DNA from: Sistotremastrum niveocremeum HHB9708
Taxonomy: Eukaryota; Basidiomycota; Agaricomycetes; Sistotremastrales; Sistotremastraceae
Reading direction: 5' to 3'
Assembly: GCA_001630475.1 (NCBI GenBank)
Contig: KV419431.1
Location: forward strand, 4,869 to 44,412
DNA: 39,544 nucleotides
In this document: positions 3,597 to 39,449 of the stretch, in pieces
How the letters are laid out: the number at the start of each line of letters is the position of its first letter
Numbering within the stretch: position 1 is the first letter of the stretch
The notes under the pieces: model-generated
Told to the model about the DNA's origin: nothing
The model's input: only the letters and a program-made list of their open reading frames with translations
Databases searched by the model: none
Made by a program: the position numbers and the translations under genes

Positions 3597-4003
3597 AGTA
3601 GAGAAGCTCAGACTCTCTTAGACAGTACGTCGCACTCTTCTTATCATTCCTCCTCACTCACGTTGCAGCAGCCCTGAACGGCCATACCCCTCGTCCTCCC
3701 ACTCAAGATGATGATCGCCCTTCGGACTCTAAGACCCCTTCTTCCCTTCCTCCCTCACCCTCGCATTCCAGCTCTCCGCTTACCGAGACGCACTCATCTC
3801 AATCCGTTGCTGTGTCCGCTCCTGTCGAAATGAACGCAACGCTCGACGAACAGGATGAAGATGCAGGCATGATAGCCGGACCTTCTGCAATCCCATTAAC
3901 CTATCTTCCTCCTTCGCACTCTGCCCCCGTCGCATCCACCTCAGACCCCGTCTTTGACATCGCGCCGACCTTAGAGAAAGGCAACACCCATACCGACGCT
4001 TGA
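3597..4003 (+). pseudogene. DUF6535 family copy 0, 3' remnant
   Basis: Bases 3597-3624 match the end of exon 5 of copy 2. They are followed by a donor GTACGT at 3625, an intron ending CAG at 3668, and a final exon 3669-4003 that reads through 111 codons to TGA in the conserved phase. The tail is Pro/Ser/Asp-rich and ends in PVFDIAPTLEKG, matching the terminal motif of the other copies. It is closest to copy 2. The rest of exon 5 and everything upstream is cut off at 3596 by the LTR-like segment. The 5' part may lie left of the window, so this could be an insertion-split gene rather than a truncated duplicate. Confidence 0.75.
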
Positions 4004-4679
4004 TTTGTCGAAGTTGCGATATACCTCTCGGTTGGAGGTCGAAGAAAACTCTTTATTTTGTCTTCTACGCATATCTAATTACATAACTCTTTTGATGTTA
4101 TCCATTATATTATTAGGTATCTCATATTCAAGATTGGCCGAGAACGCCGGAACGCGGGCGAGGCACTATATTTCAAGACATTCAACACGATAAACTTCAT
4201 ATATCAGTCCATCTACTCAAACATACATACTGCAGCCGAGACATCAGACCAGAAAAGGCGAAATAACGGCGAATGAAATTAGTATTCACTATATTCTTAA
4301 GACTGGCCTCATTCCATCATGTGTTACTTCAAATCAAGAGGAACAATCAATCCTTCTCGAGCATTTCGGGGTTCATTCAGTCAAGCCTGTAAGATCCGCC
4401 TTGCCCCGTCCGGGTCTTCATTCCCCAAATGATACACAATTTGTTCGAAATGACTCGAGCTGAAATCACGACCGGGGATTCATAACCTTCAGAGTGCCGA
4501 AGACGGAGTCAAAATAATGAAATTTGCGTTGAAAGCATGTTGAAAGCACTGCGACTTGCTCCCTTACAATAGACGTCAGCGTCGATGTTCCTCGAGAATA
4601 CTTGCTTGATTGACAGTACTTGGACTCGGACAGAGGTTGACAAGAAGATTGTCGTATAGTTGATTTTGTAGGTTGTGAA
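4004..4679. other. Intergenic region between copy 0 and its convergent partner
   Basis: Moderately AT-rich sequence of the two facing 3' ends. One 62-codon open stretch (4005-4193, +) has no recognisable features and I do not call it a gene. No repeat or terminator was recognised. Confidence 0.4.
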
Positions 4680-6250
4680 TCAAACCGAGCACCGGGCCAG
4701 ATACGGCCAGAAAAGTGTACGAGCCAGAGAACGTATCTCAGACCACGCCTCTGTCTGGTTCATTAACTTTGAGCGATACATTAATATGAGATCATCGACG
4801 CACCAGAGTTCTTCTTTCGCAAAATTCGGGTCGAGGTGAACGAGCAAGGCCTTCTCGAAAGCTTGGAGGGTTGGCGGTATCAACCTGGACAGATGGTCCT
4901 TTTTCGTCTTCGCCCAGAACTCGAGATGAGAACATATCCTTGATTCCAGCTCGGCACCAGCATCGATGATTTGAGGTTGATGATCCATGACTTGACTGAA
5001 CGAAGATAGCTTGTTGAAACACTTTGACGCGGGGAAGAGAGTAGTGCGAAGTGATCGTGGGAATGGTGTCACTGTAAGCACCGATTCACGGTTTGGGATC
5101 TCTGATTTGCTGTAGGTCGTCAGGCTTGCGGCATATCCAATTAGACGTATACGTTGAGCTGGGATGATAAATTAGCACGATGTAGGGATCGCCGAGATGA
5201 GAGTAAGACGCACCTTCGTTTGGGATCGAGAATAAATTTGCTGACGAGTGCGATTTCATGGAGACAGCGACGGAAGGGTCCTCAGATTAATGTTGCTTTG
5301 GGCTCGAGATGCTGACATATCGTTGAAGTCTCTTGAGATGGCACGATAGAACTCGAATATGCTGAAAGACATTTCATGTCATCATCGGGGCATTCGAGGA
5401 GAAATGGGCTACGCACGTTTATCCCTCGTGATATTGTCGATAGTCATCCCAGGGATTACTTCATTCCTCGTCTCTCTGCATCTCTTCCACCATTGCATAT
5501 ACCTCAATGAGTGGCTCCGGTCTACAGCTGATGCTCCTTGGTTGACCGAGTGAACGACTGAGATACGAAACGGATGGGTCGCAAAGCGGACGCGACGGAT
5601 AACAATATAGTTGAGGGCTCGTTTGACATGGAGAGACCATGGGCGATCGTCACGTGCTATTGGGAGGAGCAGAAAACTGGAGTGTCTGTCAGTGAGTCGT
5701 CTAATGGAAGTGCCACCCGTGAAGCCACGTACATAGATGCCACGCACTCTCGAACTTCTTGATTGACTTGAGACAGTATAGAGAGCTTCAGGTCATGGGA
5801 CCATTACACGCAGAGCATATTCGAGCCTTCATATCAGTAGTTTCAGTCGATCTGTTGATACCTTCAGTTCTCTTGAGATGGCACGATGAATAGCCACGCA
5901 CCTTGAAGCCAGTCATCTTCGGCTTCTCATTTCATCGAGATCCCAAAAGGTTTGTTCTCAACAGTATCTTCGCATTGAATCTTCATGAATCTGGTCCACT
6001 TGAAATCGAAAGCTGATCGAAGGGCCATATGTTATATGCCTCGACGCGAGAACGACCGAAAAACTCGAGGGAGAGGACAAATCGGATAGATCTTGGAGGT
6101 AGAACGCGGTATCAATTTTTACGAGAGAACGAGCTTATTCCGACGACTTAGAAGCAAGGGCAGAGGCAGTCTAGCGATGTCCAGGTTCATCTCAGATAAA
6201 ATGAGCGCCGGTAGGTGGTGTCCTTTGATATAGTTAACGCGCAAGAGCAG
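4680..6250 (-). CDS. Hypothetical intron-containing gene (partner of copy 0)
   Basis: I do not recognise the product. The 3' exon is credible: it runs from a splice acceptor at 5159 (CATCCCAG) to a TGA at 4680 and encodes about 159 residues of mixed, globular-looking sequence, for example HLEFWAKTKKDHLSR and WCVDDLILMYRSKL. The upstream intron is 5159-5213 (GTGCGT donor, 55 nt). The preceding exon ends ..LFSIPNE and joins in phase. Further 5' exons between about 5300 and 6250 are likely, because open stretches on the - strand are separated by GTRNGT/AG pairs, but I could not fix them. No signal peptide or membrane segment is evident in the last exon. It converges on copy 0 and diverges from copy 1. 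The 5' limit is a guess. Confidence 0.45.
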
Positions 6251-6743
6251 AGTGATTCTGTGAGATGATATCCTCTATGCCTCCTGCTTAGTTTTCCGTT
6301 TGAGCTTGATGATGGATCGCCAGAGAGCTTCGACAGCTAGAGCGACGATCCAGGACGAACGACAGGAAAGACGTGGAAAGACGGGAAATGCCGAACTCAG
6401 GCACGCGCTCGACTCAAGCACAACAATGAATATGATGATCTATCATGAAAAAAGATGGAGCGAAGATCACATCGGGAGTTTATCAGAATTTTCCGACTTG
6501 AACAAAAATTGACTACATATTGTACCAGCGATACGTATCTAGGAGCTCCCACGGATGCGGTGCACGTCGTAGGAGACGCTGAGAAGTTTGAGAGGCTACT
6601 GTTCGAGAAAGGAAAGACGCGAGGTGGTGGTACCATAGTCGTTGCACTAGGGTCTTCATCTTCGCAGCGCTGAATGGACGCATCAAACTGCTTTCCTTCC
6701 CCCTTGTACCCTCTGCCCATCACCGACCATCACTGTGGCCCCC
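6251..6743. promoter_or_regulatory. Divergent upstream region, copy 0 partner / copy 1
   Basis: About 490 bp with no gene I can support. The last 50 bp before the copy 1 ATG are C/T-rich, as in the leaders of copies 2-4, which is typical of fungal 5' UTRs. By position it should hold the promoter of copy 1 and perhaps that of the - strand partner. Confidence 0.35.
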
Positions 6744-9430
6744 ATGTCGACCTCCCTGAAGACAGCGATATCCAGCAGCGAAGTATTGGAATCTTCAAAT
6801 GCACCTCGCAAACCACACAGATCCTTATCCGACACGGTGCCGACCGCAGATCCTTTTGATTCCCCGATCTTCAAACGGTTACTCGGTCTGATTGAAGAAC
6901 AAAATGAAAAATCGGACAGACAGAACAGATCCACTGAGGAGCAAAAGGAGGCGATACTCGACATCAGAAGGGCAGTGGAGAATCTTGGGAGGCAGATGAA
7001 TGGGAAAGGGAAAGGTGTCGTGAAAGGTGGTTGTCCGCAACATGCATGATTGGTCAACCCTGATGGAGTATTCACAGGCTTCCAAGAAGCGGATGATGTT
7101 GAGATGATGGGTGGACGTCCATCGTCGGTTCAAATGGATGGAGACTTGGAAATGGAATCACCGAGAAGTCCGGTCAATGAAACGCTCCAGCGACTGAGTA
7201 CCGTGATCGAGACCGTCAAGGATACGCTAGGAAACATGAAGGACACCCTCCTCGATCACGGGAAGAAGTTCGATGTCCTCATTAGAGATGCCATCAAGGG
7301 TAGGTTGCCTTTTGACAGTACTGATGAGAGATTGACGGTGGGCGCTAGATGATCAGCCATATGACCAGAAGGAATTGGACGACGAGTCAACGTGCACTGC
7401 GCTGTTTGAGATGGCGATGACGAAGACAAAGGAAGAAGTGGACGAGTGGATAAAGCGGATGGATGTATCGCTGGTGTTTGTGAGTACCGCGATGAAAGAT
7501 TTGGGATGTTTAGTGATCAAAACACAGATAGCACTATTCTCAGCGGTGCTCACCGCCTTTGTTGTTCCCGCGACCCAAAACCTCTTTCCGTCGTCTAACA
7601 ACACACCCGGAAATCCTACAGATCCCCCTCCACCAGTCCCCAAGATATCGGCCCAGAACGTTTGCGTCTCGTATTATTTGGCATTGGTTCTGGCGGTAGG
7701 TGTGCTAAATCGAACGATTAGGATGTCTGACCAAGATCTGTGATAGATATTGGATGCGGTTCTCTCTGTTCTGGGCCGTCAGTGGATGAGCAAGCTGACA
7801 AACCGGCCAGAGGGAAGAACGTACAAAGAGCGTCTTTTGCGACATCTCGAACGCGAAAGATTGGCCAAACCGTGGCTGCGTCTTCTGGTCGAAGGCCTCC
7901 ACGTACTGCTACTTTGGTCCATCGGCCTATTCGTAACGGGCCTGCTCTATCAGCTGTGGAATCTGGGAGGCTCTTTCGAGCAACACTTACCGAGGCTGCT
8001 GGTGACATGGGGTTTAGGGATCGTGCTATCTGTGGGCATACTCGGCGTACTGTTGGGTGCGTCGATCCATGCACTCGTCTATGAAGCCTCGCCCTTTGGA
8101 GGGCCGTTTAATAAGACGCTTCTCAATGTGGCCCAGAAGCTGGCAAGGTCGTTCAAGCCGTGGATTGACCGAGTGGACAGGGCTGCGGGCTGGCTGGAAA
8201 ACAATCGTATCAGGAACAGGTGGCTACTTTGGCAAATTCTTCAATTCTTTGTCCGAGCCACTCTCGGTCCTTTGTGGCTTTCGTCTCAGCTGGTCGATGT
8301 GTGGAGATCAGAGCTAGAAATGGATGACACAGAGAAGCTTCTCACGACGTACATGGATCTAATAGCGGAGGCCAGCGATCCCAAGCTGTTGGAAAGAGCC
8401 GTAGCATCGTTTTCGTACGTGGAGTGGTTCCAGAATCGAGATCAAAGTCAGGAGGAGCTCGCGCGAATGAAGAAGACCTGGGATCGACTAACAGCGACGG
8501 ATACATCGCTGCGGGTACGAGAGACGCTCACAGCTCGAGCCAGGCAATTTGTGCCTTCTGACAGTTGGGAGATCAGGGTACTGGGAGAGAGACTCACAAC
8601 AGAGCTGGTGCAGTTCTTCCTCGGCACCCATTCATACCCCCGGTCCTTTCGCGACTCGCTGGTGGAGGATGCCTTCAAACCAGACAACGCCGATCTCCGA
8701 CCCCTCGCTGCTCTTCCATTTGAGGAATGCATTGCTCGAGTGTTGTGCGCGTATAACTACAACGGGAAGTTGGGAGATCGGAGGGACATCTTTTTCTTCG
8801 CGGAGAGACGGTGCCACTTCCTTCTTTGTGAGGGAAAGAGCGACGATGTCACGCGGATCCTCTCCCACGTCAATCGACTCGACATCGTCAAATCTTACAT
8901 TCAGCATCCATATGGCATCTACTCTGATGTTGTCGAATTCATTGTCAAAGATCACAAGCACCAAATTCTGTATTTACTCAATGAGTTCGTCAAAACAGTC
9001 GATCAGTCCAGACTTGGCCCTCGATCCCTCTCCCAAGTCTTTTCTGTTCTCGCTTCTCCTCCTCCAACTGACATCGATCTCCAAGTCGATCTCTCCCCTC
9101 TCGTCGACTATCTCTGTCGACATCCAGACTATAGCACTTGGAGGGAGATTAGCAACGCCATCATCGCCTATCTCACTCCTTTCGACCTCTCACAAATCTC
9201 AGACTCTTCTGCTGTCCGTCGATTTCTCGAGCGATGCATTGACTTTTACCTCCGCGAAGAGACAGGCAGGCGGTATCTCACCAACAACGACACAGGCGCC
9301 CGCGCCCACAATCTTTTGACAGGTGAGTCGGCATCGTCTCTTCTGCATTCTATTGACCGTGCCTGCAGAACTCAATTCCATCTCTCCTCCCACGGGCGCA
9401 ATCGCCTACGTATACACAGCCAACCATTAA
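6744..9430 (+). CDS. DUF6535 family membrane protein, copy 1 (tail disturbed)
   Basis: Function unknown. The DUF6535 domain is a fungal membrane domain seen mainly in basidiomycetes. Exons: 6744-7026, 7078-7299, 7349-7479, 7528-7695, 7747-9322 and 9369-9430, giving about 813 aa; introns are 46-51 nt, all GT-AG, and exons 2-4 have the same lengths as in copy 4. The N-terminus has the shared ADPFDSPIFKRLLGLIEEQN segment (about residues 38-57) and a charged coiled coil. The DUF6535 block begins at DDESTCTALFEMA. Membrane segments begin at about residue 213 (IALFSAVLTAFVV), then NVCVSYYLALVLA plus ILDAVLSVLG, then about 314-340 and 350-379. A long helical region follows, with EASDPKLLERAVASFSYVEW and LRPLAALPFEECIARVL. 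Oddity: splicing intron 5 gives TAA at 9428, while the family's tail motif (AVFDQSSALENAQ, stop at 9729) lies in the intron-retained frame. The ATG is the first in frame and aligns with copy 4. Confidence 0.85.
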
Positions 9431-9729
9431 GCATCACGTCCCTCTCCGTTCCACGCCCCCCCCCCCTCTTTCCAACAATCCCCCACAGCCAAACCCTGGC
9501 CTCTCACTTTCCGCCGACTACCCTTTCCCAGCTCCAGAAAATATCAATTTCAATTTTCAACGCTCTCCCTTTCGCGGATTTAAGCTCTGATATTCTGATG
9601 TCCACCCTCAATCTTGCTCCATCCGTTCTCTCTTCGTCTGAGCCTGTACCTGATCCATCCCTCGACTCAGATTCGCGGGCGGTTTTTGACCAGTCATCGG
9701 CTTTAGAGAATGCCCAAACACAAGACTGA
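9431..9729 (+). other. Out-of-frame remainder of the copy 1 tail
   Basis: This stretch is homologous to the last exon of copy 5. It encodes the family's C-terminal motif only in the frame reached if intron 5 (9323-9368, 46 nt) is retained, or if a second intron at 9410-9531 (122 nt, GTATAC donor, TTTCCCAG acceptor) is also removed; 46+122 is a multiple of 3. A run of 11 C at 9456-9466 lies here. It may be a real alternative isoform, a decayed tail, or a sequencing-sensitive homopolymer near a frameshift. Confidence 0.5.
9456..9466 (+). repeat. C11 homopolymer in the copy 1 tail
   Basis: Eleven consecutive C inside the last-exon region of copy 1. It is prone to slippage and to sequencing error. 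Confidence 0.9.
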
Positions 9730-10401
9730 TTGGTGTCCAGATCGGTTTATCAATTGGCTGAGATATTCTGACATCTTTCCGAGCATATTGTGAATGCGGA
9801 AATGAATCTATTATCGTGTAGTTGGCGCAGATCTATGAGATACAGTGGTAATTTCGAGACGAATACACCGTCTTTGAGTATTGAGAGCAATGGACAGTAC
9901 AAGAGAATAAATGCAACGAGCGGAAGACAGAGAATATAACAAAAGTGCAACCGATTTGGTAATGAAATCGTAGTGGAAGACCTTGTGCCTGAGGTCGGGA
10001 AGACGAACAATGAGTTGATCAGCGTACTTGGAAGTCCTAATGAGTAGCTGAGAACGCATTGGTGAGAGTATGATGCAAGTCGATGAGCGGAGAGCAGGAA
10101 AGGCTTTGAGTGTCTTCTCAGAAGAAATTCGCCGAAAAAGAATTTCGTGTCATAGAAAGTGATTCGGGATCAGAATAGCCAACGCACTGTGGGTTCTCCG
10201 TCAGCCAGCCGGGCACCGGATAGTTGATTCGGTCTATAAGAGCTGAGTACCGAATGATCGATGCAAGTCAGTCAGCGATCGAGAACAGCTTCGAAATGAA
10301 TCAGGACGCACTGCTTCCAGGCTTCCAACCCACAAAAACACTCCTCTAAGATCGACCTCTATGCTGCTCATCTCGCATCCCTGCCATCACACGCTCGAGA
10401 T
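9730..10401 (-). pseudogene. Partner-locus block after copy 1, inverted duplicate of 35160-35850
   Basis: On the - strand this reads as coding-like fragments (LAILIPNHFL, RRISSEKTLKAF, SQLLIRTSKYADQLIVRLPD, LRHKVFHYDF). The same reading frames recur on the + strand at 35414-35730 (ILIPNHFLSL, RRISSEKTLEAF, SQLLIGTSNNDDQ, VRHDVLHYNL), so the paralogy holds at protein level. Here an in-frame TGA follows IPNHFL, so this is a relic, a UTR or an unrecognised exon structure. A third, more diverged version lies at 28780-29170. The product is not recognised. Confidence 0.4.
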
Positions 10402-11492
10402 TTACACTCGAGCTGGCTGCAACTTTTTGTTCGATTCAACGGCTGGGTGATGCACTGAATTTTGCCGTGAGTCCTCCAATTGATCGAGGAATGGAGTGCG
10501 ATATTTCAGAAACTGGATCCATTCTGGGAGATCCTTCATGACCCCGAGAGCTGTGCGAGTCCTGAACCTGAATAGCCGGGACGGATACGACAAAAGCTAC
10601 CCGGCGAGGTCCAGTGTAAGGGGAGAGAAGATATTTGATTGCCAGTGTGCGAGATCCAGATAACATTTTTTCCACGATAGTTGAACACTGTTTGATCACA
10701 AAGGGCTGTACCTGGAAGCTGAAGTTCAGCACTGTCAAAACGAGGCTCGAGCTGACGTCGTTCGGCCGCTCTCGGCGCTTATTTTCTTCGTCTCCGTTCT
10801 TCGTTCTTCGCTGAGGTCATTGGCAGGTCGGTCAAACGAGATGATATGAGAGATCTCAAAGAAGGATTTGTGAGCTTGATTGAGAGTGAGGCAATGAATA
10901 TGCTTGAGGCCGTCGTCGAGGGTGTCGTTGGCGACTTGGCAGCAAATTGTTTGGCTTTGTTGATGTGCTCTGACCGACGAAGACAGAATATTGCCTCGCA
11001 AGCGATTTGGAAGATGTCATGATCGGTGTATGGTTATACGGAGAGGAGGACATGACGTTCAACAAGGAAGATTCAAGCTCAGTTCACAGAATATTACTAT
11101 TGAAAGCCGTCTCCGTGAACCACACAAGTTAAACTCAATTTGAAGTCGTATGTTGAGTCTTGATCTTGGTCGTTTACTGCAAGGTTTGGATATGAGAGTA
11201 AGGCAGTCTCCACGTCTCCCGGGTTGTACCAGTATGTTGCCAGAACTAGCGACTTTTGTTCTTCCTTCCCTGGATCAGACATTGAGTATAGGGCCAGCTG
11301 TGAGTCGATCACGGAACTCGAGGATATCGGATTTAGTAAAGACGTCAACCACAGTTCAGGGCGAGGTTCTGTGCATGGGATGTGACGAGATGATGCCGAA
11401 GATAACTGTGCAAGTTGACCGAATAATCGACGGGACGATTTCTTGGCCGGGCTGGATAGCTTCAGAGGGCAGAAGGGTTGGAGAGCCGCCAA
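10402..11492 (-). CDS. Hypothetical gene, partner of copy 1 (3' part)
   Basis: I do not recognise the product. Three - strand segments look coding: 11097-11492 (for example VLATYWYNPGDVETALLSYP), 10735-11000 (LTLNQAHKSFFEISHIISFD) and 10402-10593, ending WIQFLKYRTPFLDQLEDSRQ..LQPARV and a stop at 10402. The second and third have clear counterparts on the + strand at about 34620-35160 (LTLNQVHRFFYEFS; LLKYQDTTLDRLED), where stops interrupt them. Exon joins were not resolved. It converges on copy 1. The + strand open stretch over 11150-11605 is probably its shadow. Confidence 0.4.
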
Positions 11493-12271: not shown

Positions 12272-12310
12272 AAATGCCGTCTCACATCTAGAACTCCAGG
12301 CGATATCTTC

Positions 12311-13061: not shown

Positions 13062-16000
13062 ATGTCCGCCCCTCCAGACCCTCCTGATCCACACCCACAT
13101 GCTTCAATCGATTTCATACCTATAATCAATGCTCCACAGTCACTTTTGGCAGCAGCGGCTGATCCCTTTGATACACCGATGTTCAATCGGTTGATCAGAC
13201 TAATGGAAGAGCAAAATGCGACCTCACAGGCGCAACGAGAGGCCTTAGAGAAGCAGAATATGATGCTGCAAGCCCAAAGTCAAGTCCTTGAAGAACAACG
13301 AGAGGTGATGAAAGACACTCGGCACATCCAATTAAAGGAGACGGTCGATGCCACGATGGATATCAGATCAAATGGTTCGTTCAATTTCAGACCATTATTA
13401 GTCAGCTCAAAAAACGTGTTACATGTTGTCAATCAGAACATGCAGTCCAAACAATTTCTGCGCAGCCAAATCAAGAGCCAAGTCGTCCCGTACTCGTAGC
13501 GAGGAACTTGTCTCAGGATCCTCATCAACAACTTCCATCGCCTAACCCTCTGACATTCTCAATCACGGACGCAGTCCCCATTCCCATAACAGAATCAAAG
13601 GACTCAAATAACGAGAAGGTCGATGATCAAGTCGCTGAAGAACCGTCAGAATCCACTGCTACCGAGGTCGTGATCAATAAGAGAGTTGAAGACGCGACTG
13701 ACTCCGCACCATCTCACTCTCAGTCTTCAAAAGGCCATGTTCACGATGCGATTATGATACTGAATGAGACCATGAAGGGCGTGAAGGAAACTCTGTTAGA
13801 TCACGGGACGAAGTTGAATGTCTTAATTAAAGATGCTCTTAAAGGTTTGGCAGGGAAATTATATTGTTTGAAAGCCGAGTCCCACTGACCAGTATTGATA
13901 GATGACCAACCTTACGACTTGAAACCCATGGAGGACGAGTCGACTTGCACAGCCTTATATGAGATGGCGATGGCAAGCACGAAAGAGCAGGTCGACGAAT
14001 GGATTAAGAGAATGGACGTTTCGCTTGTCTTCGTCAGTAACTCTAGCATCGAGAACGAGAAGCAAATTTACGATGTCGCACCATCAGATCGCATTATTTT
14101 CAGCGGTCCTCACGGCATTCCTTATCCCGGCTATACAGAGTCTATTCCCGTCGTCGAGCAGCTCAGAATCGGACTCTCCTCCCCCGCTTCCCGACATTTC
14201 ACTGCAGAATGTCTGCATACTGAATTACCTAGCTTTAATCCTTGCGGTTTGTGGGTTCATTGAGCAAAGTCATATGACTGACTTCAAATCTAGATTTTGG
14301 ATGCTGTGCTCTGTGTGATCGGCCGTCAGTGGATGAGCAAACTGACAACTCGACCCGAAGGAGCCACTTACCGGGAACGATTACTGCGCCATCTCGGACG
14401 TGAGCGACTGGCCAAGCGATGGCTCCAGTATCTCGTGGAGGGCCTCCATGTCATTCTCCTGGGCTCTATAGGACTATTCATGACAGGCCTGCTCTATCAG
14501 CTTCGAAATCTGGCCGGATCATTCGATGAGAACGCACCGAGATTGCTCAATACGTGGAAAGTATGTATGTCCCTCTCTTCAATCATCCTGGCGGTGGTGG
14601 CGGCGGCGACTATAAATGGTCTTTTCTATGAAGTGTCGCCGTTTGGTGGGACATTCAGTAACCTTCTTGTCAAGATAGCTGAGACCTTCTGGAGTCTCTT
14701 CGTGCTGGTGATAGAGTGGTTCCAGAATGGCAAATGGACCAAGTGGTTAGAGGCACATGTCACCATCAGTTGGATGTCCTGGGCCGACATCTTGTATGTG
14801 CTTTTGCTTTTGACCACTCTGCCCATTTCGGTACCATGCTTTGCGATTTTATGGTTGAGAGTGGAATTTGACAGAGAGGATAAGAATAAACTGATGGCGG
14901 CGTTCATGGACTTGATCGCCGAAGCGAGCGATCCGAAGCTCTTGGAACGTGCGGTAGGATCATTTTCATATGTAGAGTGGATCAAAAGTGGAGAACAAAG
15001 CCGAGAATCAGTGGATCAGTTGAAGAAGACATGGAATCGACTTACTGCTACGGACACCTCAGTCCGGGTCCACGAAACGCTCAAAGCGCGAATATCCGCC
15101 TTTGTTGAATTTTGTGCAAAGAAGCACTGGGAGATCAACGACGACATCATGTCTTCCATCGTCCAGTCCTCTCCCTATTCTACCCGATTCCGAGCCGAAG
15201 TCTTATCTACTTCATTTGGCGATAACAACAGCGATCTTCGCCCCCTCGCTGCTCTCCCATTCGAGGAATGCATTGCCCGAGTCTTATGCTCACGTAACCA
15301 CGACGGCATCTGGGGAAATCGGACGAGCATCTTTGTCGATGCACAGCGATATTGCGTGGAACTTCTATTTGATGAGGCAACGAAAGATGACCTCACGCGG
15401 ATTCTCTCCCACGTTGATCGGCTCGACTTCGTCAAATCACACATCCTGACCCACGGAACCCTCCCCGATCCTCTTGTTGAGTTCGTTGTCAAGGATCACA
15501 AACACGAAGTTCTGCGAGGACTCGATGAATTCATCAGAAGTGTTGAGGTTTGCAGATTTGGGCCTTCCCCCTTCTCCCAGATCTTTATCATCCTGGTCTC
15601 TCCTCCTCCGACTGACATAGATTTATCCCCGCTCATCGGCACTCTTTCCGAACATACATGGCGTGGGACTTGGCGCGAGACTAGCAACACAGTGATCGCC
15701 TATCTGACTTCGTTCAACTTCGCACAGATCTCCGACTATAATGCTGTGCGTCGATTCCTTCGTCTCTGTCTCGATTCAGAAGCTCGTGATGCGTACGGCT
15801 CTGCTCTTTGGGAGTGGATCGACGAGGAAGACAAGATGCAAATACGTAGAGAAGCACAGACTCTTTTAGACAGTACGTTGCCCTAGGCCTCCGCTTTTCA
15901 TACCTCCTCACTCACCCTGCAGCAGCTCTCGACGGCCGTACTAATACTACCCTTCTTCCCACCGAAGATCACGGTCCAGCATCAGATTCCAACACTCGTT

Positions 16001-16272
16001 ACTTTCGAGATCTCTCAGTCTCCAATCGCCGCGCTCCCCCTCCCGAACCCCACTCAGCTCGACCCTCTGTTGTATCGATTCCGTTGGCTTTGTCCAGCGA
16101 TCACGACGAAGAGGCATCTACACAGCCTGAGCCTTTGACTAAATCTGATCCTGAGTTAGCATCAATGACCTATCCTCCATTTTCTTTACAGGCCGCTCCT
16201 GACTCGTCTATCGCATCCACCTCGAACGCAGTCTTCCACGCTTCTCCAGCGCTGAAGAACGCTCACGAGTGA
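13062..16272 (+). CDS. DUF6535 family membrane protein, copy 2 (976 aa)
   Basis: Exons: 13062-13374, 13446-13844, 13902-14032, 14088-14246, 14294-15872 and 15923-16272. All phases agree and the total is 977 codons with stop. Intron 1 has a weak donor (GTTCGT) and is chosen because acceptor GCAG at 13445 is the one I found that keeps phase; this join is the least certain. The N-terminus has ADPFDTPMFNRLIRLMEEQN, then a Gln/Glu-rich coiled coil and an acidic linker longer than in the other copies. DUF6535 follows from about residue 245, with four membrane segments starting at IALFSAVLTAFLIP (about residue 282). The conserved helical region carries EASDPKLLERAVGSFSYVEW and ends near residue 860. 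The last exon is Pro/Ser-rich and ends NAVFHASPALKNAHE. Intron 3 uses GTCAGT. The gene appears intact. Its tail is closest to copy 0. Confidence 0.85.
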
Positions 16273-17083: not shown

Positions 17084-17357
17084 TGTGCGAAATATAGCTC
17101 AGTGATTGTGTACAACACTGAATATATTGAGTAATGCTACCTGTGCGAAATATAGCTATACAGGTCATCAGCGAAAGAATGACACTATACAAGACGAATA
17201 CTGACCTCAGTGATTGTGTACAACACTGAGGTTCAGTCTAAACTCCGCTGAACTATCTATACAGTCGATTGCCATGGTTGAGACTCCGCTCAACCTAGTG
17301 GCATAGCGTCCGGCTCAACTCCCCCTGCACTCTGCTACGGGCTCGATAATCTCAACA
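17084..17357 (-). repeat. 3' LTR of the copia element
   Basis: 274 bp, matching 21233-21506 exactly by eye. It contains two copies of TGTGCGAAATATAGCT (17084-17099 and 17142-17157). It also contains two copies of a near-palindrome based on CAGTG-ATTGTGTACAA-CACTG (about 17098-17121 and 17206-17230). The first six bases on the coding strand (TGTTGA) supply the last codon and stop of pol. Confidence 0.95.
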
Positions 17358-21098: not shown

Positions 21099-21220
21099 AT
21101 TTGGTGCGAAGGAAATTGACAGGGTAGTGCGGTAGTCATTTGTTGATCAATGTGAGGTCGAAAGAAAGAGGAATGATAGATTATATAGGACTTTGAGTAA
21201 TGGTTCAATTTTCGAGCGCA

Positions 21221-21232
21221 GGGCTCATAACC
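21221..21232 (-). other. Primer-binding site, half tRNA-iMet type
   Basis: Directly inside the 5' LTR the coding strand reads GGTTATGAGCCC. It is complementary to GGGCTCATAACC, the anticodon arm of initiator tRNA-Met with its CAT anticodon, rather than to a tRNA 3' end. This is the arrangement known from Drosophila copia, where a 5' half-tRNA primes. The tRNA assignment rests on recalled tRNA sequence. Confidence 0.7.
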
Positions 21233-21506
21233 TGTGCGAAATATAGCTCAGTGATTGTGTACAACACTGAATATATTGAGTAATGCTACCTGTGCGAAAT
21301 ATAGCTATACAGGTCATCAGCGAAAGAATGACACTATACAAGACGAATACTGACCTCAGTGATTGTGTACAACACTGAGGTTCAGTCTAAACTCCGCTGA
21401 ACTATCTATACAGTCGATTGCCATGGTTGAGACTCCGCTCAACCTAGTGGCATAGCGTCCGGCTCAACTCCCCCTGCACTCTGCTACGGGCTCGATAATC
21501 TCAACA
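21233..21506 (-). repeat. 5' LTR of the copia element
   Basis: 274 bp, matching the LTR at 17084-17357. It is followed by the target duplication GATTC at 21507-21511. It should contain the promoter of the element. Confidence 0.95.
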
Positions 21507-23358: not shown

Positions 23359-26300
23359 ATGGCACCTCTCCATTACTCAGAGATGGAAGGAACAAGGGCG
23401 CTTAAGATTGACCGGAAGCCTTTCGAGCCCAGCTTGGCTTCAGATATTCACGTCGGGTTCGACGAGTTAGTCATTTTGATGAAGGAACAAATCGCAGTTG
23501 CCAGAGAACAGACAGAAGAGATAAAGGAGCTGAGGAAGGTCGTCGAAGACCGTGGAATCCATCTCAAAGACGAAGAATTGGCTGAGGTTGATGGTGAGTC
23601 GGCTATATTGAATGACTGCGCCGAGCCTGACATCGAGACGACCAGAAGGCCAAGATTCAAAAAGTTCACGGAGTCGAACTGGAGAGACAAGAAGCCGATC
23701 TTCCAGTGTCCAGCAACCATCTGAGTAAGCGTCCATCCATCAAAGATGGAGTCGTTGTGTGACCGGCCCTTGAAACAACGTCCAGCGCAGATGTTGAGTC
23801 CGAGGATGAGCCTCAAACAGCAGTGGCACCATCTTCATCTCCCGGGGCCATAGAGAAAGCCATTTTGCTGTTGAACGAAACCATGACCAGGGTCAAAGAG
23901 ACCCTCCTCGACCATAGCACCAAGTTGAACGTACTGATCAAAGATGCGATGAAAGGTGAGTGAAATGAAACCAAGGTAATCGAGTTAAGCTCACGAGAGG
24001 GATCCAGATGATCAACCGTACGACGAAAAAGACTTGGACGACGAATCAACTTGTACGGCTTTGTTCGAGATGGCGATGACGAGGACAAAGGAAGAAGTCG
24101 ATGAGTGGATCAAACGCTTGGACGCGTCATTGGTCTTTGTGAGTGATACTGTTCCTGAAGGATGGTAAATGAGTAACAAAACTCACAACGGGATGATAGA
24201 TTGCATTGTACTCGGCGGTGCTCACCGCATTTGTCGTGCCTGCCACCCAGAATCTCTTTCCATCATCGAACAACACCCCGGGCTACTCCACCGCATCTCC
24301 TCCCCCTGTTCCAAGAATCCCAGCGCAGAACCTATGTGTGTCGTATTATCTTGCATTGATCATTGCGGTGAGTCGTATTGGTCGGCGAGAACGATGAACG
24401 GCTCATCAACAAGCCACAACAGATGCTGGATGCAGTTTTGTCTGTCCTGGGCCGCCAATGGATGAGCAAGTTGATCACTCGTCCGGAAGGAAGTACATAC
24501 AAGGAGAGACTGCTACGACACATCGAACGTGAGAGGCTAGCCAAACCGTGGCTCCGTCTCCTGGTTGAAGGACTACACGTCTTGCTCCTCTGGTCAATCG
24601 GCCTGTTTGTGACCGGACTGTTGTATCAGTTGTGGAATCTTGGAGGACCTTTTGAAGAACCCTTACCAAGGCTGCTAGTGACGTGGGGACTGGGTGTTGT
24701 CCTCTTGGTGGGAATCCTGGCAGTGGTTCTCGCTGCATCCGTGCATGCGCTGATTTACGAAGCTTCTCCTTTCGGCGGACCATTCAGCCGACTATTTCTC
24801 GGAGCAGCTCTGAACATGGCAAGAAATTTTCAGCCATGGATGAAACGACTTGAACAAGCCGGTCTGTGGTTGGATATCCGACACCAGAACCGATGGCTAC
24901 AGTTTCGGCGAATATTTTCAGGAGTCGGACGAGCTCTTGCTATGCCATTGTGGCTGTCGTTCCATCTAGTCGAAACATGGAGGGTCAGACTGAAGCTGGA
25001 TGACGACAGACAGCTTGGTGCTACCTACATGGAGCTTATTGCTGAAGCCAGTGATCCGGCACTGTTGGAACGCGCAGTGGCCTCGTTCTCTTATGTGAAG
25101 TGGTACGACGAAGGGAAAGGATCTGTGGTTCAGGTCTTGAAGACAGGCAATCGACTGATGGCGACGGACACCTCGATTCGAGTACGGGAGACATTGAGAG
25201 CACGTGCCAGGTGGTTGATCCCCTCCGATAGCCAAGAGTTGCGATTGCTAGGTGGCATCTTCACCAAGGAGCTAGTCCAATTCTTCCTTGCAGTCCACTC
25301 GTACCCCGAACGTTTCCGGAACTCGCTGTTGGAGGCGGCATTCAAAGCAGGAAACGAGGATCTACGTCCTCTAGCTGCTCTTCCATTTGATGAATGCGTC
25401 GCTCGAGTAATGGCCTCGTATAACCACGAGGGGAGGTTGGGAGAACGAAAGTGGCTTTTTTATTTGGCGGAGAATCATTGCGCCAAACTGTTGAAGGAGG
25501 GAAAGACAGAGGACGTCTCGCGAATTCTCTCCCACGTCGACCGCCTTGACCTCATCAAGTCAATCATCCAAAGCCCATCCTTCGTTAACCTCATTCTTGC
25601 AAGATTAATCGCTGAGGTCGACAAACACGAGACTCTCATCCAAATCAATCAATTCGTCAAGACTATCAAGAAAACCAGACTCGGTCCTCGATCCCTCTCC
25701 AATGTCTTCATTGCGCTCGCCGATCCTCCTCCGACTGACATCGATCTCTCGCATATCATTGATTATATCTCCCGACATCCACACAAATTTTCTTGGAAGG
25801 ACACTTGCGAAACAATCATCAGTTATCTCAACTCTTTCGCCATCGCCCAAATCTCAAATCGAGGTGCTGTCCGTCGATTTCTGCGCCTGTGTGTGGACCC
25901 AGAACCTCGCGATATCGACGGCAAGGATCTTTGGGGATGGACCATGTTCGCAGACAAGACACGGATCTGTGACAATGCCCAGACACTATTAGACGGTATG
26001 TGGCGTTCACCTTCGGCTTGTTGTTCATGACCAGTTACATCGACTTACACGTATGTTGCGCAGCACTTAATCATCTTCCCCCTCTTCCTGCCAACGCTCT
26101 TAATCCAGAGTCTCGCCCCCCATTGTCCCCGCATCGCGGCCTTACACCTCACCGATCAGTCATGGCCCAGCCCCCCGTCATACCCTTTGATGCCCAAATC
26201 CCGTTACCACTCACTGACCCCACTGACAACGACGAGGACGAAAACGAACATGTCCTTCAAAGTAAGATCAAGCGCTCCATTGCTTTGATGTTGTATTCCA

Positions 26301-26386
26301 TCAACCGTCGACATCAACCCACGACTACAGAACCACATGCAGTTTTCAACAAGGTGCCGCAGCTCGAGGCCCGCGGAGGCGCATGA
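23359..26386 (+). CDS. DUF6535 family membrane protein, copy 3 (864 aa)
   Basis: Exons: 23359-23593, 23791-23955, 24008-24138, 24200-24367, 24423-25995 and 26064-26386, in phase throughout, 865 codons with stop. Intron 1 is unusually long for this family (197 nt) and may hide a lost or alternative exon. The N-terminus lacks the DPFD[ST]P segment of copies 1, 2 and 4 but keeps a coiled coil (ELVILMKEQIAVAREQTEEI). Exon 2 is short (55 codons against 74). DUF6535 starts near residue 140. Membrane segments begin with IALYSAVLTAFVVPATQNLF (about 178), then LCVSYYLALIIA plus MLDAVLSVLG, and two more within residues 275-345. The helical region contains EASDPALLERAVASFSYVKW and LRPLAALPFDECVARVM. The final exon ends HAVFNKVPQLEARGGA. 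The gene appears intact. Confidence 0.85.
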
Positions 26387-29229: not shown

Positions 29230-32178
29230 TCATCCTAAGCCTGGTGCCGGAGCAAAGACCACCTGCGAATTCGCAGGGAATGGTGGATCAGACTCAGAAA
29301 CAGACGACGAGAGACAGAGTTGAAGATGATCAGGCGGGAGGGTGGTCATGGGAATAGCAAAGTGTGATTGTGCCGAAGCGACAACGTCGATATCAATATC
29401 TGCGGAAGGTGGGGAAAAGGAGTTTGCGGAAGGGGGCAGAAGAGGATCTCGCAGCCAGGGTGAAATGTGGTTGGAGGGCGGGATGTAAGACAGAGGGTGA
29501 GGTGGTGATGCTGGCTGACTGGGGGGACAGGCGATTGCATCGGTTGTGAGAGACAGAGAAGCGAGTCCTGATGAAACAGTCAGCATGAGGGGTAGGAAGA
29601 GAGGCAAGGGCTACTCGCCTGCTAAGAGGATGCGAGCTTGAGCACGAGCTTGAGCACTGGTGAGATACCGATAGCCGTGCTCATCGCAGAATTCTGCATC
29701 AACATGTCGATTGAGGAATTGGCGGATAGCAGTGCGATCGGAGAGTTTTGAGAGTGGATAAGAGGTCAGATAGCTCATGATCAGGGTGCTGGTATGCTCC
29801 CAAGTCCAGCGGTACGGATGTCGAGAGAGATAGTCGATGAGCGGCGACAGATCAATGGTAGTTGGAGGAGGATCAGCGAGAGCGAGAAAGACCCAGGAGA
29901 TAGAGTCTGGACCAAGTCGTGACTGATCAACTGTTGTGATGAACTCATTGATTTGGCGCAGAATTTCGAGTTTGTGGTCTTTGACAATGAGTCTGACAAG
30001 ACGGTAGCTGATGACACCTGGGAATTGAATAAATGATTTAATGAGGTTGAGTGGATTGACGTGGGAGAAGATCCTCGTGACGTCAACTCCTTTTCCCTCT
30101 AGATCATGACAATGTTCCTGTGCCAAGTCAAAGATCCTCTCCCGATCTCCCAATTTCCCCGGGTGACTGTACGAGCACAGAATGTGAGCGATACATTTCT
30201 CGAATGGCAGAGCAGCGAAGGGACGGAGATCGGCGTTGTCAGCGTCAAAAGAAGCGGACAAGACTTCAGCTGAGAAATGAGTAGAGAAAGGATATGACTT
30301 GATGATGGAGTGCATGACATCCTCGCTGATATTCACATTGTTCTCTGCACAGTGTTTGACAAAGGGAAAGATTCGCGATCTGAGGGTCTCGCGGACTCGG
30401 ATTGAGGTGTCTGTCGCTGTGAGTCGGTTCCATGTCTTCTTCAGCCGATCCACAGATCCTTGACTTTGTCCTTGACTCCAGACCCATTCTACATACGAGA
30501 AGGATCCCACCGCGCGTTCCAAGAGTTTCGGATCGCTTGCTTCGGCAATCAAATCCATATACGCAGTCCAAAGCTTCTGGTCAGCATTCAGTCGAAGCTC
30601 TACTCTCCACACATTGACCAGCTGGAACGCCAACCACAATGGAGCAGCAATCATTTGTCCCAGAATGCGAAGGACCTTTCGAAAGGGACGTCGCCTGTAT
30701 TTGAACCGATCGTCCAACCATCCTGCGACCCCTTCGACTTGTTTCATCCAAGACTCGAAAGATCCTGCCATCTTTCGTGTAGCCATGAAAAGTGTCCGGC
30801 TGAACGGACCCCCAAAAGGCGAAGCTTCGTAGATCAGTGCATGCATCGACGCACCCAGCACAACCGAGAGGATACTCAGTGATAAGAATATCCCTAAGCC
30901 CCACGTTATCAGCAGCCTAGGCACGTCTTCCTCAAAGGATACTCCGAGATTCCACAGCTGATATAGCAGCCCAGAAACGAACAGGCCGATGGAGCAGAGT
31001 AGCAGTGCGTGTAGTCCTTCGACCAGAAGACGGAGCCACGGCTTGGCAAGTCTTTCTCGTTCCAGATGACGCATGAGTCGTTCCTTGTAAGTATTTCCCT
31101 CGGGTCGATTTGTGAGCTTGCTCATCCACTGGCGCCCTAGGACAGAAAGTACTGCATCCAGTACCTATTACAGCCGCTCAGTCACATTTTCCTTCTCTGA
31201 CCAGACCGATAGGGCATACCGCAAGGATTAGGGCGAGATAATAAGAGACGCAGACGTTCTGGGCTGATATATCCGGAACCGGTGGAGGAGAGTAAGTGGG
31301 ATTTGATGAAGCGTTATTCGACGAGGGAAAGAGGTTTTGGGTGGCAGGAACCACGAAGGCGGTGAGCACAGCTGAGAACAATGCTATCTGTGGCTTGGTC
31401 ACTTACAATTTCAAATCTTTCATCAAAGTACTCACGAATACCAACGACACGTCCATTCGCTTGATCCACTCGTCCACCTCCTCTTTTGTCTTCGCCATTG
31501 CCATCTCGAACAGCGCTGTACACGTCGACTCATCGTCAAGTTCCTTCTCCTCGTATGGTTGATCATCTATCGCCAGCCGTCAATTGACATCTAACTCATA
31601 GTCCGGGCTACAGACCTTTAATTGCATCTCTGATCAAAATATCAAATTTTCTGCCATGGTCGAGCAGCGTATCCTTTATATTCCATAGAGTATCCTTGAC
31701 GCTCTCAATTACGGCGGTCAGGTGCTGGAACGTTTCGTTGACTGGACTTGTCGGCGACTCTATGTTCAAGCTTCCAGCTACTTTGACTGAAGATCGAGGT
31801 TGATAAGTCGTTTGACGTTCATCGTCTTCTTGGAAATCTTCGAATACTCAGTCAGTGCTGACGAATACGGTATGATGCAGGCAACTCACTTCTAAGGACC
31901 CCCTTTCCTTTTCCTTCCATCTGCTTTCCGAGACTCTCTACTGATCTCCTGAGATCCATTATCGCCTCCTTCTGCTCCTCAAACGACTTGTGATGGATTT
32001 CCGATTTAGCATTCTGCTCTTTGACGAGGCTGACTAACTGTCTGAAGATTGGGGTATCGAAAGGATCTACGACGGAGACCGTGTGTGATGGTGAGTAGGG
32101 TGCTTCAAATGACACCTTGGGAATCTCGTTCGTCTTAGTTTTGGGAGATGGTGACTGTGAACTTGAAGACGTCGACAT
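29230..32178 (-). CDS. DUF6535 family membrane protein, copy 4 (897 aa)
   Basis: Exons on the - strand: 32178-31890, 31837-31616, 31566-31436, 31387-31220, 31164-29619 and 29567-29230, 898 codons with stop, all phases consistent. Intron 5 (29618-29568) starts GCGAGT, a GC-AG intron at the place where copies 1 and 5 have GTGAGT; unspliced, the frame would stop two codons later. Residues about 35-55 hold VDPFDTPIFRQLVSLVKEQN, followed by a coiled coil. DUF6535 starts near 178 (DDESTCTALFEMA). Membrane segments are at about 215-234, 258-283, 316-342 and 352-381. The helical region has EASDPKLLERAVGSFSYVEW. The last exon is Pro/Ser-rich and ends QVVFAPAPGLG. No damage is visible. The ATG at 32178 is the first in frame after a C/T-rich leader. 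Confidence 0.87.
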
Positions 32179-32597
32179 GAGAGATAGCGGATGGTGGGAG
32201 TATGACGGAGGGAGATGTGAAGGCAGACTAGGCAAACTAGACAAAGAGGATGCGGATTTAATGCATTCTGTGAGCGTCGATCAGCGCTCAGCTGAAGGCC
32301 CTTAGACTGCTGATGCGATGATGGTAACGCGACCTCGCGACTTTCCCCGCAAGGGAGAGACTCTCCTGCTGAATTCAGTATTTGATTTCCTCGAACGGGA
32401 TACTAGGGCTCGTAAAGCAGCCAATTTCGATTGAAGGCGACACCATCTACATATACTTGCTCGGTATACTCGAGTAATGCGTGCAGCAGCACTTAGCCGG
32501 CCATTGAGCGCCTATCTGACATAAGCCATCGACCTGGAATGATGCGCCGTTCATCTTAAATAAATTTTCGAAAAAAAAAAAGATCGAACGTCTTCAT
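32179..32597. promoter_or_regulatory. Upstream region of copy 4
   Basis: C/T-rich leader (coding strand) just upstream of the copy 4 ATG, then about 350 bp without a supportable gene. An A11 run lies at 32571-32581. Confidence 0.35.
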
Positions 32598-35850: not shown

Positions 35851-36371
35851 ACCAATCAGTCTTCTCTATGGGCATTCTCTAAATCAGGCGACCGATCAAA
35901 GGCTGCCTGCGAATCCGGAGCGAGAAGTGCATCGGACACAGGCTCGGTCGACGCGATAACGGGTGGAGGATGATTGAGGGTGAGCATGGGAGTATTCATA
36001 TCAGAGTTTGGATCTGCGAAAGGGACAGTGTCATCGGCGATATTCTCTGGAGCGGCGGAAATGGAGTCGATGGAAGGGGAGAGGAGAGAGTCTGGTTGCG
36101 AGGAAGTGTTGGGAGTCGGATCGTGAGGCGCCCAGTGGGACGGTGATGCTGATCGGATGGATGTAGAGGCGATCGCGCCGGTGGAAGAAGAGATGGTATT
36201 CAGTTCTGCGGGGACGGTCAACAGAATGCAGAGGGAGAGACGAGGATGACTCACCTGTTAACAGATCGCGGGCGCGAGAGCGAGTGTCATCACCAATGAT
36301 AAACCAATAGCCGGCCACATCGCAGATTGCGTTACGAACGCATAGCTGGAGGAATCGACGGACAGCAGTAG

Positions 36372-37064
36372 TGAAGGAATCTGCGTCACCACTGTGGCGC
36401 AGGCGAGAAAGGAGGTTCGGGGCGATGCGGGAACACGTAGGGCTCGTAGATAGAACCTTTGTAGTGTAAGCCACAGAAATAGAGAGTGCAGAAATGGATG
36501 GAAATGCGAATGTGTATGATTTTAGAGAGTTTGGAGAGACTGAGACTTGGAGGGAGAACTTGAGAAGTTACAGGCAGTCCTCTTGACTCCTGCAATCGAC
36601 TCTTGAACTCTTAGACTGGGTGAGATCGCACAATGAGAGATGAACTCGCTCTGATTGGGAACTAAGGAAAATACATGAGAAGTAAGGCCTCTATTTATAC
36701 TAGTACGTCTCAGGAGCTCGGATATACTACTAATAGTCCATATGCGATGTATCGAGGAGTTCATGAAGAGAAAAGGAGAAAGTCGAGGGGAATATCGAGG
36801 GGGAAGTGGAGCCGAAGTGTTTTTATGAGGTTTTTCTAGGGGTTTTGTGTCGGCTTGTGGAGTCGTATATTGAGTCTGAGAGGGGTTTCGATGACATTAG
36901 GAGTGTGGGCGATTCGATAGGAGTGAGGGGTGAATTGATATAGCGATGATTTCGAGGGGTTTCGACGAGGCGAGGGGAGAGGTCGGAGTCTCGGAAGCTC
37001 GGACTTATCGGACTTAAGGGGACTTGGGACTTCGAGAGGCAAGAATACTCTATTATTCTCTACA
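36372..37064 (-). mobile_element. Solo LTR, 693 bp, inside copy 5
   Basis: It lies between the family-conserved SDST and AVRRFL. The boundaries read TG..CA, with 4-bp GTAG on both sides (36368-36371 and 37065-37068). On the - strand it starts TGTAGAGAATAATAG and has a TATA box in TAGTATAAATAGAGG about 365 nt in, as expected for a U3-R-U5 LTR. It ends GATTCCTTCA. It contains no coding domain, so it is a solo LTR left by LTR-LTR recombination. Superfamily (Ty3-like or copia-like) cannot be decided without internal sequence. Confidence 0.7.
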
Positions 37065-37390
37065 GTAGAGTCGGAGAATTGTGAGAGGGGGAAGGAAGTC
37101 AGATAGGCGATGATCGTATCGCTAGTCTCCCTCCAAGTGTAAGAGTGTGGATGTCGAGAGAAGTAGTCGATGAGAGGGGACAGATCGATGTCAGTCGGAG
37201 GAGAAGCGAGAACAGCAAAGACTTGGGAGAGGGATCGACGACCAATTCGGGTATGATCGACTGTTTTGACGAATTCATTGATTCCGCGCAGAAGTTCGTC
37301 ATTGCGATCTTCAACAATGAAGTCGACAACAGAAGAGAAGTGGTAGTCACGTGGATCCTGAATGTAGGATTTGATGAGGTCGAGTCGATG

Positions 37391-37997
37391 TAGCCTGAGG
37401 ATAAGCACCGTTCTGCGTCGGACACGCCGGAGATAAACTCCGATGTATTTTCTTATTTGGCTTTCGCGCCAAATATGGAAAACCTTCGCAGAAGGGCTTG
37501 AGGCAAGTTCATTAGAAGGGGGGGCATACATCGTCGAGCGGTTTCAAACTCTCTGATGACCTCGGGATCCCAGGATTTTTTGTTTTTCTATACTTCTGCT
37601 CTATATACACCTTCTCTGGAAAAAATAATAATTTAATATTGGGTCCAAGTACTGTATCTGATATATACCCGACAACCACATTGTTGACGGAAATCACCCA
37701 AACCACCCAGCAATTTGTCTGAGAACTCTCCGAAATTTACAGCCAACGTCGAAAACATCTCAACATGCCTTAACACAACCATTAATAATACTTGCAACTA
37801 CCAGGTGAAAATTGAAGGGATGGGCCGTAATAAAGTGTTTGAGGCAGCACAGCAAGTATGCCCCCCCTTCTAATGAACTTGCCTCAAGCCCTTCTGCGAA
37901 GGTTTTCCATATTTGGCGCGAAAGCCAAACATGAAAATACATCTGAGTTTATCTCCGAGAGTGCCATTCGCTGAACGAGCTTGAGGTTCTCAGGCTA
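37391..37997. mobile_element. Mutator-like miniature element, 607 bp
   Basis: Terminal inverted repeats of about 140 bp (37391-37529 and 37856-37997) begin TAGCCTGAG and are most similar in their inner parts (GGCTTTCGCGCCAAATATGG). They are flanked by the 9-bp duplication GAGTCGATG (37382-37390 and 37998-38006). Long inverted repeats with a 9-bp duplication fit the Mutator superfamily. The 326-bp centre has no ORF of note, so it is non-autonomous. Confidence 0.8.
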
Positions 37998-38849
37998 GAG
38001 TCGATGGACGTGGGAGAAGATCCGCGTGACGTCATCTCCCTTTCCCTCTTCAAGAAGGTCGTAGCAATGTTTCTCCGCCAAGTAAAAGATTGTCTGGCGA
38101 TCTCCCAACTTCCCCTCGTGGTTATACGAGCACAACACACGGGCGACGCATTCCTCCAATGGGAGAAGAGCGAGAGGACGGAGATCGGTGTTGTCTGCTC
38201 TGAATGACGCGTAGTAGACCTCAGCGATGAATCGGTCGGCTAAAGGACAGACGCTGGCAAGGACTTGGATCTGCTTCGGAGTGATGATCTCCATTGATTT
38301 TTCGTTCTGATCCTTGACAAACTGAGTCATCCGCGCTCTGAGCGTCTCCCGGACCCTGATTGAAGTGTCCGTCGCCGTCAATCGATTCCACGTCTTCGCC
38401 AACTGATCAGCTGTTCCCTCCCCATCTTCGAACCATTCAACATATGAGAATGACCCTACCGCTCTTTCCAACAACTTTGGGTCGCTCGCTTCCGCAATCA
38501 AATCCATGAACGCCCCTACGAGTTTCTTCTGATCATCCTGGTCCAAGTCGATCCTCCAATGATCGACCAGCAGTGAACACAGCCACAACGGCCATGCAAT
38601 TGTCTTCCCAGCAATAGGGAGTATACGTAGTACTCGATAAAATGGGATACTCATAATCCGGTAATCCAACCAACGCGATATCTTGTCCACCTTGTGCATC
38701 AGCTTGTCGAATGCGGCACTCAAGGCTCTTGCTGCCTGATAAAGTAGGTGACTGAATGGACCCCCAAACGGTGAAACTTCGTAAACCAGCGCATGTGTTG
38801 TTGCGGCCAGCACTACTACCAAGATACCAGACGAGAGAACGACGCCGAG

Positions 38850-39355
38850 TAGAGTTCCAAAGTCCAGTCACGACTGGACTTTTTCCAAAATTCCTCATGA
38901 CTGGCAACTGCGACCGGTTGCCAAATTCCAAATTTGCTGTGACTGGCAACTGCAACTGCAGTTGCAGTCCGGCAACCAGTCATCAAATGACCAGTCACGA
39001 CCAGTTGCCTGCCCTATAAATGTAATATTTTAATGATTAATATATTGTTTTACCCTCTTATATGTAGTCTATTGGTGTCTATTGATCATATATATACTGT
39101 ATATACATCATATACCATGAATACATGCTCATACATGGGGAAAATACCACTACATGACCCTCTGAACACCCTAGTTGGGGACCCTTAAGGGTCTTCCCTG
39201 AGCATCGGTCGCGACCGTGGTCACGACTGGTCATGACTGCGGTTGCTGGTTGCCTGATTTTCAGAAACCAAGGCAACCGGCAACTGCAGTCCAGTCGCGA
39301 CTTCGGTCCGGTTGCCCAATACGACCAGTCACATGGACTGGACCTTGGAACTCTA
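38850..39355. mobile_element. hAT-like 506-bp miniature element, copy B
   Basis: Inverted ends TAGAGTTCCAAAGTCCAGTC and TAGAGTTCCAAGGTCCAGTC, 8-bp duplication ACGCCGAG (38842-38849 and 39356-39363). It has the same length as copy A (105-3037 minus its nested element) and lies in the opposite orientation. It interrupts the copy 5 coding sequence between the third and fourth membrane segments; the flanks join in frame. Confidence 0.92.
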
Positions 39356-39449
39356 ACGCCGAGTACCCAAGCTGCAAAGATTCTTGGCGTGCTCCGCTCA
39401 AACGATCCACTGAGGTTCAGAATCTGATAGAGCAGGCCGGTCATGAAGA

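Follow-up and report, generated by a model that had tools for sequence, protein, structure and literature searches.

The 39,544-nucleotide stretch of Sistotremastrum niveocremeum HHB9708 that we analyzed (the window; contig KV419431.1, here C38, positions 4869-44412) forms one end of a tandem gene array whose members encode membrane proteins with the domain DUF6535 (Pfam PF20153, InterPro IPR045338), an entry that is silent on arrays, tail exchange, and function. One genome of one strain was studied, as an assembly of 34.7 Mb in 111 contigs. The window contains six copies: a 3′ remnant (A), four copies with exons 3-5 (B, C, D, and E) and one disrupted by transposons (F). The domain is common to B, C, D, and E, whose exon 5 matched DUF6535 at 44.8, 39.3, 45.1, and 45.4 bits, respectively (Pfam cut-off 23.9); exons 3-4 of copy B scored 48.3 bits against the same cut-off. 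The 177 positions of the domain are covered in B by two exon stretches (3-106 and 106-177) and in the six-frame match from 4 to 177. These matches above cut-off, together with four hydrophobic helices in B, bear out the description of the copies as DUF6535 membrane genes in an earlier sequence-only reading of this DNA. That reading had proposed a mirrored array of six copies, four pointing right and two left. The six DUF6535 copies are real and their orientations hold (B, C, D, and the remnant A to the right, E and F to the left), but A is only a 3′ end, the mirror is a single switch of orientation between D and E, and the array extends beyond the window.

A tblastn search of C38:1-200000 with copy B, in a region that contains three stretches of N, identified 15 exon-5 units (B to P) and fragments, making an array of 16 units with A counted in. 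Spacing is mostly 5 to 7 kb, and all ten units outside the window (G to P) point left. Genome-wide, a PF20153 search produced 151 matches, and 150 positions resolved into at least 129 loci on 35 contigs. At least 46 of these loci are single under a 15-kb rule, which also breaks the C38 array into pieces; the genome counts are lower bounds because 150 of 312 candidates were scored. There were no PF20153 matches in 14 control genomes. The telomere motif, searched for as four TTAGGG units, was absent from the assembly, and we make no claim of a subtelomeric position.

Copy B is complete (6744..9430, plus strand) and its model, supported by Pfam, a spliced frame, and introns, encodes 813 residues in six exons (6744-7026, 7078-7299, 7349-7479, 7528-7695, 7747-9322, and 9369-9430), separated by five introns of 46-51 nt that are all GT-AG. 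On the same strand lie copies C (13062..16272; exons 3-5 at 13902-14032, 14088-14246, and 14294 to ~15872) and D (23360..26386; exons 3-5 at 24008-24138, 24200-24367, and 24423 to ~25995), and on the minus strand lies copy E (29230..32178; exons 3-5 at 31566-31436, 31387-31220, and 31164 to ~29619, exon ends placed by eye). The shared exon structure proposed earlier was reproduced, with exon 3 being 131 nt in all four copies and exon 4 being 168 nt in B, D, and E and 159 nt in C (E again read by eye). The donor after exon 5 of E (~29619) reads, by eye, GC in place of GT, so that in E this intron may be of the GC-AG type or be spliced wrongly. Two types of 3′ ending occur, type I in B, E, and F, and type II in A, C, and D as well as in unit L. 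Copy A (3597..4003, plus strand) has no match upstream of ~3597; with its flank it is 80% identical to the 3′ end and flank of L (C38:86530-88769), and along 96 nt it shares 79% identity with the last exon of C. Copy F (35856..39450, minus strand), delineated from tblastn pieces and target-site duplications, is broken by insertions at 38850-39355 and 37391-37999 and probably by a third transposon near 36370-37060 that was seen by eye only. The remnant A and the transposon-broken F agree with the prior description of clustered, partly dead copies.

Exon 1, which is otherwise variable, has a short motif resembling DPFDTPxFxxLxxLxxEQN at 6849-6896 and at the same place in other units; the motif is also present in a distant relative (L001). 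Promoter regions are of several types, with B grouping with K, for example, and C with J. An exon 5 query found no match by sequence in PDB at E up to 1, and the window had no Rfam match at the gathering threshold.

To compare the units along their length, codon analyses were performed on 12 of the 16, excluding A (fragment), F (broken), J (frameshift), and P (divergent). Among the nine type I units, the median proportion of synonymous differences (pS) is 0.65-0.76 in five windows before position 8647 and 0.32-0.45 in the four downstream of it (36 pairs, except for the last window with 28). The drop is less sharp in type II pairs (n = 3; 0.71-0.84 to 0.51-0.57) and in pairs of type I with type II (n = 27; 0.61-0.75 to 0.42-0.59). 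At third codon positions, the change point falls at exon-5 residue 313 (position 8683), where divergence declines from 0.50 to 0.26 (473 codons, 0 of 500 permutations). Low divergence extends past exon 5 into the last exon and ~1.2 kb of noncoding flank, so that the putatively exchanged 3′ block of copy B (8683..10950, plus strand) comprises the C-terminal helical domain from residue 313, the last exon, and noncoding flank. Mean divergence of the flank in eight units is 0.19-0.32 to ~10950, then 0.45-0.55, and 0.32-0.40 just before the next gene. Across nine units, among them J and O, which are less similar, median identity declines from 0.75-0.80 in the 3′ part of exon 5 to 0.65-0.72 in the flank and to 0.41-0.52 further out.

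The two halves of the units also have conflicting histories. For the 12 units, the 5′ data reject the 3′ tree (approximately unbiased test, AU, 3.0e-4) and the 3′ data reject the 5′ tree (1.7e-5). The type II units C, D, and L group together in the 3′ tree (support 84), while the 5′ tree contains the pairs L/G (100), C/H (78), and D/E (61). Tested on seven units, the trees of the 5′ part, the 3′ part, and the flank are mutually rejected in six of six comparisons (AU 0.039 or less). The neighbors G and H have a 708-nt identical tract inside the block, the next longest runs being short, and the block flank is private to C38 and three other contigs, C41, C108, and C111 (23 matches from 20 candidates). 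At least one 21-mer is shared by 33 of 36 pairs in the 3′ part of exon 5, by 10 of 36 in its 5′ part, and by 23 of 36 in the flank, a comparison intended to ask if small RNAs could act across copies. Judged from divergence and tree topology, the C38 units are mosaics in which the copies of the 3′ block descend from a more recent ancestor than those of the membrane half, and the type I and type II endings sit on membrane halves from different branches.

The position of the step can be related to a predicted structural boundary. In the AlphaFold2 prediction for exon 5, the mean predicted local distance difference test score (pLDDT) per block is 34-64 to residue 300 and 64-87 at residues 301-524, which are almost all helix. 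Confidence climbs at residues 301-330, where the exchanged block starts; the sole confidently predicted part thus begins close to the change point at 313. Domain start and exchange boundary thus seem to coincide approximately in the model, which, given its few input sequences, we regard as a guide, not proof.

A comparable step was found in a second array, on C39, whose three copies (d1 to d3) show 41-48% identity with B or K in their first match. There, pS drops from 0.74-0.85 to 0.33-0.42 between d2 and d3 and from 0.80-0.86 to 0.47-0.64 between d1 and d2, with the steps at d2 residue 348 and d1 residue 361 (0 of 300 permutations each). The change point in d2 is 14 residues inside the module start at 334. 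Copies at C39:210001-224000 (L031-L032) have two successive module starts in one frame; in d2, where this was tested, the C-terminal module begins twice within a single frame (z 27.6 vs. 200 shuffles), and therefore the tail may be a repeat array varying in length between clusters.

Selection differs along the protein, as judged by the ratio of nonsynonymous to synonymous divergence (omega) in pairs with pS below 0.5. The membrane core (residues 1-120) has an omega of 0.06 in one pair, and saturated pairs agree on its constraint (pS 0.73, with a proportion of nonsynonymous differences, pN, of 0.12). After the fourth membrane helix follows a hypervariable segment of 65 residues (exon-5 residues 121-185; 8107..8301, plus strand), with a median pN of 0.51 over 36 pairs (window from 8107) and omega of 0.94-1.15 in three related pairs among H, M, and O. 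Median omega is 0.14 for residues 186-260 (5 pairs), 0.60 for residues 261-300 (maximum 1.11, 6 pairs), and 0.53 for the tail at residues 311-510 (range 0.32-0.84, 56 pairs). With omega of 0.06 in the core, 0.94-1.15 in the segment, and 0.53 in the tail, selection is uneven; uniform purifying selection, which had been named beforehand as contradicting a fast-evolving family, is not what is seen. The accompanying picture of a conserved core with variable ends needs amendment: the core is constrained and there are variable segments, but the C-terminal part of exon 5 is homogenized between copies.

The earlier reading also assigned each copy a convergent partner locus on the opposite strand. Most units do have homologous DNA there, but protein coding is unsupported. 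Long homologous flanks are common to B, F, G, H, I, J, K, M, N, and O, and separately to A and L; in C, D, E, and P only short pieces match other units. D and E have one common convergent interval with ~2.8 kb between stops, and a copia element sits in the flank of C. The longest open frame of a partner (4680..5171, minus strand, 163 codons), downstream of A, is probably not a gene. Its sole relative in the genome adjoins unit L, and the 79% protein identity over 140 residues of this common frame, with a dN/dS of 0.70 (below 1) over 102 codons, would be in keeping with a protein-coding partner that forms a two-gene unit with DUF6535. However, that ratio reflects 19.5 nonsynonymous and 7.5 synonymous changes, the L version has a one-base deletion upstream of the ATG, and there is no genome relative besides L. 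Moreover, tblastx between units gave about the same scores in all six frames, as shown for the flanks of B, K, H, I, and N, and no Pfam match was found in the partner frames. Of 22 windows covering the flank between 9769 and 13068, none had a period-3 signal (eight units, smallest p 0.124), while this signal is clear in exons 1 to 5 up to ~8690 in the same test. On these grounds we have set aside the partner as a protein gene and consider the two-gene unit extremely improbable.

The flank does contain a candidate antisense intron (10243..10311, minus strand) with a GTRNGT donor, a CTGAC branch-like motif, and CAG. Among the aligned units, 10 of 10 retain the antisense GTRNGT at 10311, much as 9 of 10 retain the sense intron-5 donor at 9323; the exact position of the 3′ AG is not kept in all units. 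When six control patterns were examined on two strands, one gave a similarly kept site. The hexamer GTRCGT occurs 41 times antisense and 5 times sense in 34.2 kb of flanks (12 related intervals), as against 37 antisense and 28 sense in 60 kb elsewhere on C38. Pyrimidine-rich hexamers in the flanks are equally lopsided, and since the flanks are related copies the counts are not independent. The partner is most likely noncoding DNA travelling with the block, and possibly it is transcribed antisense and spliced.

Such a transcript opens an alternative to exchange, in which functional constraint from an antisense spliced noncoding RNA or regulatory DNA over the gene ends slows change in the block. 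The donor-like site kept in every aligned unit and the antisense excess of GTRCGT would fit this view, tempered by the non-independence of the hexamer counts and by the equal asymmetry of pyrimidine-rich hexamers. Constraint of this kind does not readily explain a flank confined to four contigs, the similar divergence of the coding and noncoding parts of the block, the conflict between the trees of the two halves, or the G/H tract, which is identical at all sites. We consider constraint in place of exchange unlikely, and exchange of the C-terminal module between copies very probable on the sequence comparisons.

Several observations weigh against this reading or its extension to a selected repertoire. 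The most conserved part of the flank, a local minimum at 10219-10369 with a divergence of 0.19, speaks for the constraint explanation and hints at constraint besides exchange. The one long identical tract found (G/H) lies beyond the window, which leaves most of the exchange to be inferred from divergence and tree topology; synonymous sites in the membrane half are near saturation, which weakens the rate estimates. The AlphaFold2 prediction was made with five window sequences as input, has a mean pLDDT of 61, and is usable from about residue 301. The C39 pair d1/d3 has no significant change (58 of 300 permutations), and the C8 array (four copies compared, 16 kb), in which homology is confined near gene bodies, has no clear step, with pS of 0.51-0.77 throughout. 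With steps in two of three C39 pairs and none in C8, exchange recurs but is not general. Finally, omega is nowhere clearly above 1, and the tail value of 0.53 could reflect relaxed constraint.

The low core and intermediate tail omega, the remnants and broken copies, and the array without a step are also what would be expected of ordinary birth and death, in which copies duplicate and decay, gene conversion is incidental, no repertoire is under selection, and the proteins share one conserved membrane function and have disposable tails. Less easily accommodated by this explanation are the start of exchange near the same domain start in two arrays that are just 41-48% alike and the 65-residue segment with omega near 1 between constrained segments, although the latter comes from three related pairs. 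We regard birth and death alone as an appreciable possibility, if one we lean away from.

Each intact copy encodes a variable N-terminus, a conserved four-helix core running from exon 3 into early exon 5, a hypervariable segment directly behind the fourth helix, and a predicted helical domain at the C-terminus. If the exchange reading is correct, copies would pass the C-terminal domain with the last exon and 3′ flank to one another by gene conversion or unequal exchange, as in gene families under pressure to diversify fast, and membrane cores would thereby be joined to new tail modules. Both the tail and the hypervariable segment would face the cytosol and bind changing partners, and the array could then represent a repertoire of membrane sensors, with nonself or stress recognition as its likeliest use. 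A sensor or recognition role is tentative, a little short of evenly balanced in our judgment, and we place the combination of exchange and such a role at the same level. A more elaborate proposal, that DUF6535 arrays are a nonself-recognition repertoire of mushroom-type fungi, made up of membrane sensors that trade cytosolic tails among copies at a fixed domain boundary, while the shared 3′ block gives rise to a spliced, convergent noncoding RNA that takes part in choosing the expressed copies, is highly speculative and probably wrong.

Transposable elements account for other features of the window. Between C and D is a copia-type long terminal repeat retrotransposon (17084-21506) with identical 275-nt terminal repeats, a 5-nt duplication (GATTC), and a single open frame of 1264 codons that matches RVT_2 and rve; it looks like a recent insertion. 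Two related elements in opposite orientation, at 105-3037 (2.9 kb) and 38850-39355 (0.5 kb), have the same ends (TAGAGTTCC...) and 8-nt target duplications, are presumably hAT-like, and give rise to the strongest mirrored repeats of the window. A third element, inside copy F (37391-37999), has inverted arms of 102 nt that are 97% complementary and a 9-nt target duplication, and we take it to be Mutator-like. The repeats I4 and I7 each represent a copy of the same transposon.

In the literature searched, DUF6535 or PF20153 surfaced as a table row of one paper, and the family therefore looks almost undescribed there; no work on gene conversion in tandem arrays of transmembrane genes of basidiomycetes was found in it. 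Somatic incompatibility in this group of fungi has been described as poorly understood (PMC8229728). With at least 129 loci in a single 34.7-Mb genome and two arrays in which modules are exchanged at a domain boundary, the DUF6535 arrays would be concrete candidates for this process.

The arrangement has parallels in known systems. The variant surface glycoproteins (VSG) of trypanosomes and variant-specific surface proteins (VSP) of Giardia are surface-antigen families with a diverged 5′ part and a homogenized, shared 3′ end. The DUF6535 units resemble them in the diverged 5′ part on a homogenized 3′ end and in a possible antisense transcript. They differ in that the diverged half here is a constrained membrane core, and the likeness is one of gene architecture, surface display and one-at-a-time expression being features of the antigen families.

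A closer fungal parallel is the NWD/STAND family of Podospora (het-d, het-e), in which C-terminal WD repeats are reported to be exchanged between members under positive selection, the genes act in allorecognition, and some copies are dead (PMC1805685). Scans of exon 5 from copies B to E and of other frames, spliced whole proteins not being among the sequences scanned, gave no NACHT/NB-ARC, WD, TPR, or ankyrin match at cut-off. Both are fungal families in which a C-terminal domain undergoes concerted evolution between members (here in C38 and C39, though not in C8) and dead copies occur; the Podospora proteins carry WD repeats and serve allorecognition, whereas the proteins described here combine a membrane core with a helical tail lacking a Pfam match. 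By analogy, the DUF6535 arrays appear to work similarly to the Podospora NWD family without being members of it.

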